Origin: Actinomycetota bacterium
Lineage (GTDB): Bacteria > Actinomycetota > UBA4738 > HRBIN12
Direction: 5' to 3'
NCBI GenBank assembly: GCA_040881665.1
Contig: JBBECT010000004.1
Location: 1 to 64,000, forward strand
DNA length: 64,000 nt
In this document: positions 57,306-64,000 of the stretch, in pieces
How positions within the stretch are numbered: position 1 is the first letter of the stretch
Layout of the letters: every line of letters begins with the position of its first letter
Position numbers and translations under genes: made by a program
Notes under the pieces: generated by a model
The model's database searches: none
The model's input: the letters and a program-made list of their open reading frames with translations, nothing else
Told to the model about the DNA's origin: nothing

Positions 57306-59201
57306 CTACCGGTCGCCGGCCCGCCGCGCGGACTCGACGACCTCGGCGGCCAGATCGAACCGGCCGAACTGCGGCATCAGGTAGACCCCGGCCACAGCAG
57401 GATGCACCGCGAGCTCCTCGACGAGCTCGGTCGCCATCGCAAGCCCCTCCGCGGCATGGTCCGCCTTCCGGATCCGGTCGAGCACCTCGGGGGGGATCAC
57501 GACACCGGGCACCTCATTGTGGATGAACTCGGCATGTCTGCGGGACGCGAGCGGCAACACGCCCGCGAGGATCCGCAGCGAGAGCTCTCCGTGTCGCGCC
57601 TCGTAGGCATCGACGAGGCGCTCGAGCGGTCCGAGTGAATACATCGGCTGCGACAGCGCGAACCGGGCTCCCGCATCCACCTTCTTCCTCAGCAGCTTCA
57701 CTTCGCGACCGAGGTCCGGAGCCGACGGGCTCAAGGCGCACCCCACGAGGAACCGCGTCGGCTCGCCGATCGAGGAGCCGGCGTGATCGCTCCCGGCGTT
57801 GAACCCGCCGGTGACCAGAGCCATCAAGCCCGTCGGCGTCACGTCGATCGCATCCGTCCCGTGAGGGTAGTCCCCGATCGTGACCGGGTCGCCGAGGCAG
57901 ACGAACAGGTTCCGGACGCCGAGCGCGTGGATCGCGAGCAGATCACCCTGGAGCCGGAGCAGGTTCCGGCCGCGCGTGGGGAAGTGCAGCACCGTCTCGA
58001 CACCCACGCGTTCCTCGATCGCGCGGCACGCGGCCCACGGACTCATCCGCATCTTCGCCATCGGTGAGTCGGCGACGTCGATCACGTCCGCTCCCGCCTG
58101 GACGAGGGTCTGCGCCGCAGCCACGAGCCGAGCGGGCGAGTGCGAACGTGGCGGCTCCATCTCGACGGCGATCGTCCAGTCGTCGCGGTCGAGTCTGCGT
58201 TCGAGCGCGGAGGCCGTGTCGTCCGATACCCCGGCGGAAGCGACGGGTGGCGGATCCTCGACGAGCCGCACGTCCGCCCGCGTGTCCGCCCGGACGTCCG
58301 AATGGCGTTCGGCCGGCCCTCGCTCGAGGGCGTCGGCCATGGCCCCCACGTGCTCCGGACCCGTACCGCAGCATCCGCCGAGAACGGCGACCCCCTCCTC
58401 GATCAGATTCCGCGCGAGCTCGCCGAAGTAGCCGGGCGTCGCCGGGTACAGGAACCGGCCACCGATCTGCTGCGGGCCACCGGCGTTCGGCTTGGCGAGC
58501 AACGGGACCGACCCGACCGATCCCCGGATCCGCCTGATCACGCGGAGCGCCTGCGCGGGACCCTGTCCGCAGTTGACACCGATCGCGTCCACATCGAGCT
58601 CACGCAGTCGGGCGGCGACCTCATCGGGCGGAGAGCCGAGCGGTGTTCGGTCGTCGGTCGTGAACGTGGCGGACGCGACGAGGGGAACCCCGGGCGCGAC
58701 CGATCGAACGGCGAGCACCGCTTGCTCGAGCTCGACGAGATCGGTCTGGGTCTCGACCACGAACAGATCGACCCCGGCGGACGCCAGGGCAGCCGCCTGC
58801 TCGGCGTACGCCTCCCGGGCCTCCTCGCTCCGCACTCGCCCGTACGGCGCCAGCCACACACCGAGCGGACCGATCGAGCCCGCGACCGAAACACCTTCGG
58901 CCTCGACCGCCTCGCGGGCGATCGCGACGGCGGCCTCCGCGAGCTCGGCGACGCGTTCTGCCCGAACCCCGTGCCGTGCGAGCTTGAAACGATTCCCTCC
59001 GAAGGAGTTCGTCCACACGACCCGAGCACCTGCCTGGACGAAAGACCGGTGGACCGACCGGACCAGGTCGGGCTGCTCCACGTTGAGTTCTTCGAAGCAC
59101 GCGTCGAAGGGGATCCCGCGGTCGGCCAACGACGTTGCGAGCCCGCCGTCGGCGAGCAGGGGCCCTGCCCGCAGCAGGTCGGCGAACGCAGCGCGGTCCA
59201 T
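57306..59201 (-). CDS. Bifunctional homocysteine S-methyltransferase / methylenetetrahydrofolate reductase
   Basis: 631 residues. N-terminal ~1-290 homocysteine methyltransferase with the zinc cysteines C211 (GVNCGQGP) and C277/C278 (LGGCCGTGPEH). C-terminal ~335-631 MTHFR barrel (WTIAVEMEPPRSHSPARLVA, VLHFPTRGRNLLRLQGDLLA, LFVCLGDPVTIGDYP). The fusion (YitJ type) makes 5-methyl-THF and/or transfers methyl groups to homocysteine to give methionine. No riboswitch precedes it in the 48 bases to the divergent PPOX gene. ATG 59201. Confidence 0.92.
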   Translation of the reverse strand: MDRAAFADLLRAGPLLADGGLATSLADRGIPFDACFEELNVEQPDLVRSVHRSFVQAGARVVWTNSFGGNRFKLARHGVRAERVAELAEAAVAIAREAVEAEGVSVAGSIGPLGVWLAPYGRVRSEEAREAYAEQAAALASAGVDLFVVETQTDLVELEQAVLAVRSVAPGVPLVASATFTTDDRTPLGSPPDEVAARLRELDVDAIGVNCGQGPAQALRVIRRIRGSVGSVPLLAKPNAGGPQQIGGRFLYPATPGYFGELARNLIEEGVAVLGGCCGTGPEHVGAMADALERGPAERHSDVRADTRADVRLVEDPPPVASAGVSDDTASALERRLDRDDWTIAVEMEPPRSHSPARLVAAAQTLVQAGADVIDVADSPMAKMRMSPWAACRAIEERVGVETVLHFPTRGRNLLRLQGDLLAIHALGVRNLFVCLGDPVTIGDYPHGTDAIDVTPTGLMALVTGGFNAGSDHAGSSIGEPTRFLVGCALSPSAPDLGREVKLLRKKVDAGARFALSQPMYSLGPLERLVDAYEARHGELSLRILAGVLPLASRRHAEFIHNEVPGVVIPPEVLDRIRKADHAAEGLAMATELVEELAVHPAVAGVYLMPQFGRFDLAAEVVESARRAGDR

Positions 59202-63037: not shown

Positions 63038-63541
63038 TCACGCACGCCGACGGGACACACCGTCACGTTGCCGCTCCGCGAGCAGGGCCGTCCACGCCCG
63101 TCGGGCTGCGCCGCGATACCCGTCCCGCTCCGCCGCCACGAGGTCCTCGAACAGCATCACGCTGCTCGGCAGCGGTTCGGACCGCCGGGGATCGAAGAAG
63201 GGGAGATCGAACTCCCGGAGCTCGATCCCGAGGTCCGGGTTGGAGTAGTACAGGTGCGCGCGAGGACAGGGGATCAGGTCCTCGAGGTGGTTCGCGAGTC
63301 CGTTGCGAACGTTCTCCACCAGAGGGGCGGGGTCGTCGCGGCGACGCGTCCGGACGGTCGCAGCGAGGGCGTCCAGGCTGACACCCACGACGGTGACGTC
63401 GACCTTGCCCCACATCCCGAACAGCTTCCTCGTCTCGAAGCAGAACTCGTTCGCGAGCGCGACCAGTCGCTGTCGTGGCGACAGAGCGCGCGCGGGAGCT
63501 TCACCTCGCACACGTCTCGATGCATCGTCGGATGCGCGCAT
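63038..63541 (-). CDS. Unknown protein behind a riboswitch-terminator leader
   Basis: 167 residues, soluble. Basic N terminus (~1-22), then LSPRQRLVALANEFCFETRK, LFGMWGKVDVTVVGVSLDAL, DPAPLVENVRNGLANHLEDL and AHLYYSNPDLGIELREFDLP, with a helical tail rich in Arg. No family recognised. ATG 63541 has GGAAGGAGGAAGG upstream. The 240-base leader carries an S-box-like aptamer and terminator, so the gene is probably repressed when S-adenosylmethionine is plentiful; a role linked to methionine or methyl transfer is inference only. Confidence 0.75.
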   Translation of the reverse strand: MRASDDASRRVRGEAPARALSPRQRLVALANEFCFETRKLFGMWGKVDVTVVGVSLDALAATVRTRRRDDPAPLVENVRNGLANHLEDLIPCPRAHLYYSNPDLGIELREFDLPFFDPRRSEPLPSSVMLFEDLVAAERDGYRGAARRAWTALLAERQRDGVSRRRA

Positions 63542-63626
63542 CGGCCTTCCTCCTTCCCGGATCGCCTGCGATCCGATCGAGATGCTCCGCGGAGCGGGAG
63601 GGCCGGGATCGCCGAGGAACGCGAAA

Positions 63627-63658
63627 GGACCCGCCGTCCGCATCGGGAAGGCGGGTCC
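63627..63658 (-). terminator. Hairpin terminator in the leader of the unknown gene
   Basis: On the minus strand GGACCCGCC (63658-63650) and GGCGGGTCC (63635-63627) form a 9-bp GC stem with a 14-base loop, followed by TTT. It lies between the aptamer and the ATG 63541 (79-85 bases before it), the usual place for a riboswitch expression platform. Confidence 0.65.
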
Positions 63659-63690
63659 GCCTCGGACAATTCGTTGCCGATCGATCCGGC

Positions 63691-63782
63691 CACATCCCCG
63701 CTCGCGCGGGAGGCACCTTGGGTGTCCGTCCCAGGTTGCCGGGCTCCCTCCTCTCCCCGGGAGGCGAGCCGCTCCTGATGCG
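63691..63782 (-). ncRNA. Probable SAM-clan (S-box-like) riboswitch aptamer
   Basis: Reading the minus strand, four stems make a four-way junction: P1 CGCAT (63782-63778)/ATGTG (63695-63691), P2 GGCTCGCCTCC (63770-63760)/GGAGGGAGCC (63751-63742), P3 GGCAACCT (63740-63733)/AAGGTGCC (63719-63712), P4 CCCGC (63710-63706)/GCGGG (63701-63697) with GCGA loop. GCATCAGGAGCGGC at the 5' side, GAGGGA in P2 and CGGCAACC...AAGGTGCC in P3 are the conserved S-box pieces. The AA usually found before P4 is missing. A terminator and gene follow. It could be SAM-I or a SAM-I/IV variant. Confidence 0.65.
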
Positions 63783-64000
63783 TTCTCCTCGATGGTACAC
63801 GGGGCCGACGGGGGACGCGCCCGCGCGCCGGGAGGAAGGGTTCGTCGAGGTCGGCCGGAGCGTCCAGCCGCGGGCTGGTCCGTTCCCCGTACGCAGGACA
63901 CCCGATGCGAGGCACGGGGGCGGCACCTAGCATGCCCAGCGACCGGCGCGCGCGAAGGTGTGTCAGGCTCGTGCACGAACGACAGGTCGTCACCCGGTCG
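63783..64000. other. No gene seen; upstream of the riboswitch
   Basis: About 220 bases with no supported gene. It should contain the promoter for the riboswitch-controlled transcript reading leftward, but no hexamer pair could be assigned with confidence. Confidence 0.4.

Follow-up and report, generated by a model that had tools for sequence, protein, structure and literature searches.

A SAM-I/IV riboswitch precedes the gene for a lineage-restricted orphan protein in an uncultured actinobacterial class

We found that, in an uncultured actinobacterium, a SAM-I/IV riboswitch lies upstream of a gene whose 167-amino-acid product has no recognised family. Both are on the minus strand of the 64,000-nucleotide stretch of DNA that we analysed (the window), with the aptamer at 63786-63660 and the gene at 63541-63038. 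As far as its sequence can tell, the leader is a genuine and ordinary riboswitch of a known class, and only the controlled gene is new. Our overall explanation, to which we give a probability of about 0.78, is that this is an ordinary SAM-I/IV OFF switch over a soluble factor for methionine or SAM supply. This explanation builds on features that we observed, namely the aptamer, its core, the complementarity of its pseudoknot, covariation among related leaders, and the linkage of riboswitch to gene.

We infer the other parts of the explanation: the ligand, the OFF direction, the expression platform, and the role in methionine metabolism. SAM would bind the core formed by P1 to P3 and would stabilise P1 as well as the pseudoknot in which the P3 loop pairs with the 3' tail; binding would alter the pairing of the tail, of the adjoining hairpin, and of the ribosome-binding site; and with SAM plentiful, expression of the 167-residue gene would be lowered. 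The protein itself would be a lineage-restricted soluble factor, probably for methionine or SAM supply. The riboswitch serves here as a functional pointer, as it links an unannotated protein family to the level of SAM in an uncultured class.

The aptamer and its core

The Rfam model for SAM-I-IV (RF01725) matches the window at 63660-63786 on the minus strand with a score of 49.5 bits, above the gathering score of 41.1, and the match covers the full length of the model (positions 1-99). The E value is 4.5e-5 when the whole 64-kb window is searched and 7.7e-7 for a 1.1-kb stretch. No other Rfam match in the window is above its cut-off, and RF01725 matches the 2.46-Mb genome nowhere else. An earlier note on this DNA had described an S-box-like riboswitch and suggested a covariance-model search. 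The search bears out membership in the SAM clan, with RF01725 as the best-scoring family of the clan; the leader is thus more precisely SAM-I/IV, and the note's coordinates are correct to within a few bases. The aptamer comprises P1, P2, P3, P4, P5, and a 3' tail. Both the alignment to the model and the sequence contain the features of the class (PMC2864571, PMC6890682): P2 has no internal loop, and P4 and P5 are present. SAM is the presumed ligand.

The strongly conserved core positions of the leader are identical to those of 19 aligned relatives, and it departs from these relatives at just two positions, of which one belongs to P2 and the other to the tail. Across the stems, 97.5% of the cells in the alignment are paired, and none of 500 shuffles was as good. 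Furthermore, ten stem pairs have changed on both sides, as compared to a mean of 5.4 in shuffles.

In the pseudoknot, the P3-loop strand CGGACA (63723-63728, minus strand) is a perfect complement to TGTCCG in the 3' tail (63663-63668, minus strand). Matches of this kind within a single sequence are weakly above chance, so it is the relatives that support the pseudoknot: they place it at nearly the same position in the tail and compensate with other sequences (TCGCC/GGCGA, GGAAGC/GCTTCC, and CGAAC/GTTCG). The earlier note had listed a lack of compensatory changes in orthologous leaders among the findings that would count against it; among the related leaders aligned here such changes are present, both as the ten two-sided pairs and as the variants of the pseudoknot.

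The lack of an AA before P4 had been raised as a hint of a variant class. This does not hold, because the core is canonical and because the AA is likewise absent from other aligned members of SAM-I/IV; its absence is no mark of a new variant. We also considered a variant subclass with a changed ligand (such as SAH or a polyamine), as in the SAM-I variants that bind spermidine. There is precedent for a change of ligand via a few core mutations (PMC10853860), and the gene controlled here is an orphan. However, in the spermidine-binding variants the changes are in J1/2 and in the internal loop of P3 (PMC10853860), and in our leader these positions are canonical; the two differing positions fall in P2 and the tail instead. 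The strongly conserved positions also all match those of relatives upstream of metX and metH. We rejected a variant ligand class because of these canonical core positions and consider a changed ligand to be very improbable.

The 167-residue protein and the genes that the riboswitch precedes

The open reading frame at 63541-63038, which contains no stops, is a real gene, because its base composition is like that of coding sequence (GC of 0.80 at third codon positions versus 0.51 at second positions) and because homologous reading frames (36-39% identity) occur in two more genera within the same taxonomic family. As the earlier note had it, the protein belongs to no recognised family: searches against Pfam, NCBIfam, and PADLOC gave no match, PHROGs gave only noise, and nothing beyond chance was found among the sequences in the PDB. 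The AlphaFold model (pLDDT 79.8, pTM 0.74), which rests on three sequences, has a helix, two strands, a helix, two strands, and a long helix, in that order. Foldseek found no match for this model at E <= 0.001 in the PDB or among viral models. Proteins of the MpsC/DUF2294 family (PF10057) have their helices and strands in a comparable order. We rejected kinship with this family, as a comparison of profiles by hhalign gave a probability of 0.3%, and the GRGP motif, which is invariant in A3, is absent from the 167-residue protein.

Among 27 genomes sampled from the class, three encode the protein and five have a SAM-I/IV riboswitch. In all three of the genomes with the gene (from three genera), the riboswitch lies upstream of it, so the leader is conserved in orthologues, a check that had been proposed at the outset; this linkage rests on three members of the protein family. 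In one of the three (G010), the aptamer scores 30.9 bits, which is below the gathering score. This locus also has a 253-residue reading frame between the riboswitch and the homologue (L004:715-1473), which has no significant family match and is unique to G010 among the class genomes. When about 85,000 species genomes were scanned for patterns of conserved peptides, just two contigs came up, which to judge by their identical lengths appear to be those of the two known relatives, and searches of the phylum, of viral contigs, and of plasmids found no further relatives. We took weak 17-bit matches in two genomes from other families (G308 and G326) to be chance; on reading, one falls within a photolyase-like protein, and the second is in a short frame without resemblance. 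By sequence comparison, then, the protein is a lineage-restricted orphan family, seen in three related uncultured species.

Our best guess is that the protein has a role in methionine or SAM metabolism, because in related genomes riboswitches of this class stand before metH, metX, and metK. The remaining two class genomes with the riboswitch have it upstream of metH (for one of these genes, the first 493 residues match metH). In a sample of the phylum, 31 of 396 genomes have the riboswitch. Of the loci that we fetched, about 13 are upstream of metX, as judged from the first reading frame (two of these were confirmed with NCBIfam), and two are upstream of metK. Another two, L068 and L073, are SAM-I/IV-type matches below the gathering score and are upstream of threonine synthase genes; there, the homoserine branch point would come under SAM control. 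At the two loci with the phylum sample's top SAM-I/IV scores (58.4 bits for L054, G330:C1:1407399-1407511, and 57.0 bits for L055, G303:C67:1989-2107), the first downstream reading frame is not recognisable as a methionine gene. Judging by eye, another match (L060, G353:C645) lies upstream of a stretch that resembles a mobile element and bears an integrase.

The earlier note had allowed for either methionine/SAM metabolism or the transport of a related compound. The regulon of metH, metX, and metK speaks for metabolism. Transport is unlikely, because the protein has no membrane or hydrophobic segment (the maximum Kyte-Doolittle mean over 19 residues is 1.28).

A metH gene lies on another contig of the genome, and the genome also encodes a MetB/MetY-family enzyme. 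We saw no riboswitch at metH in this genome or in readable members of its family. The window also contains a gene for a bifunctional homocysteine S-methyltransferase/methylenetetrahydrofolate reductase (57306-59201, minus strand), which is 4 kb from the riboswitch and has no riboswitch of its own. Because these three enzymes are present, the 167-residue protein is not an obvious replacement for a missing enzyme. MetX, whose gene is the one that SAM-I/IV riboswitches usually precede in the wider phylum, was not clearly recognisable in the sampled genomes of the class. If the proposed role is true, the protein would be one more component of methionine metabolism in this class.

Downstream of the 167-residue gene are a glyoxalase-like gene and then an OsmC-like gene (62962-62107, minus strand; the intervening gaps are 75 and 61 nt long), which could be on the same transcript. 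These neighbours bear on another explanation, that the riboswitch is real but that the protein takes no direct part in the metabolism of methionine and the level of SAM is a proxy signal. The neighbours would fit with this, as would the 24 of 27 class genomes that lack the protein, given that metH and enzymes of the MetB/MetY family occur in the class in its absence. But the regulon elsewhere is almost entirely methionine and SAM genes, and the glyoxalase-like/OsmC-like pair is not common to the two homologue loci. We consider a proxy signal to be quite unlikely. A bolder version of the proposed methionine role is that the protein is the first of a new family, restricted to this lineage, that acts directly in methionine/SAM homeostasis under SAM-I/IV control, as an enzyme or as a partner of methionine synthase, and that no known methionine protein or solved fold is related to it. 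This seems somewhat unlikely to us.

The region between the aptamer and the gene

A 9-bp hairpin lies on the 3' side of the aptamer: GGACCCGCC (63658-63650) pairs with GGCGGGTCC (63635-63627), followed by TTT (63626-63624) and then by CGCGTTCC. This hairpin (63627-63658, minus strand) is a possible expression platform. Its 48-nt stretch has a predicted energy of -27.3 kcal/mol (z = -3.2 versus shuffles), yet 26 of 500 shuffles (about 5%) of this GC-rich leader also contain a perfect 9-bp stem. The hairpin is real but weakly above chance, and it has no terminator-grade run of T. The earlier note had called it a terminator; the hairpin and the TTT are there, but a terminator is unproven, as a terminator scan of the leader did not accept the hairpin and the T run is just three bases.

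If the riboswitch acts by terminating transcription, then binding of SAM would favour the 9-bp hairpin and the transcript would end near 63624. A stable hairpin immediately after the pseudoknot strand, with TTT behind it, is what this would require, and G010 has a 9-bp hairpin of another sequence at the same place (GCGATGCCC/GGGCATCGC), which hints that the hairpin is functional. However, G010's hairpin is followed by GACCCC, and the short T run, the negative scan, and the frequency of such stems in shuffles count against termination here. We view termination as possible, though we would bet against it.

Alternatively, the same riboswitch might control translation, with the ribosome-binding site sequestered in the SAM-bound state. 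The site, GGAAGGAGG (AAGGAGG at 63549-63555, minus strand), ends 7 nt upstream of the ATG at 63541 and is the strong ribosome site that had been described. An 8-nt complement of the ribosome-site region (63559-63552), CCTTCCCG, lies at 63644-63651 on the minus strand, and both homologues have 6-nt equivalents. We regard CCTTCCCG as suggestive only as a sequestering strand: 153 of 2,000 shuffles were as good, and none of the complements is strong when taken singly (frequencies among shuffles of about 0.08 in the window and about 0.04 and 0.13 in the homologues). In the window, the predicted access to the ribosome-binding site is lower in the bound state (0.20) than in the unbound state (0.55). 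But reduced access in the bound state is not predicted for the relatives, among which the direction conflicts. We put translational control at slightly below even odds. By either route, the OFF direction of our preferred explanation is assumed from the class.

Comparison with known riboswitch classes

The leader resembles SAM-IV (RF00634; PMC6890682) in having P5 and a pseudoknot that joins the tail to the P3 loop. In SAM-IV, however, P2 is split, there is a second pseudoknot (PK-1), and P4 is lacking, while the leader has an uninterrupted P2 and does have P4. With SAM-I (the S-box, RF00162), the leader shares the core and P1 to P4; it differs in having P5 and the tail pseudoknot, and RF01725 scores best. 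As compared to SAM-I/IV (RF01725; PMC2864571), the leader has a score above the gathering cut-off, the core, an unbroken P2, P4, P5, and the tail pseudoknot. Nothing within the aptamer differs from this class, and what is new is the gene under its control.
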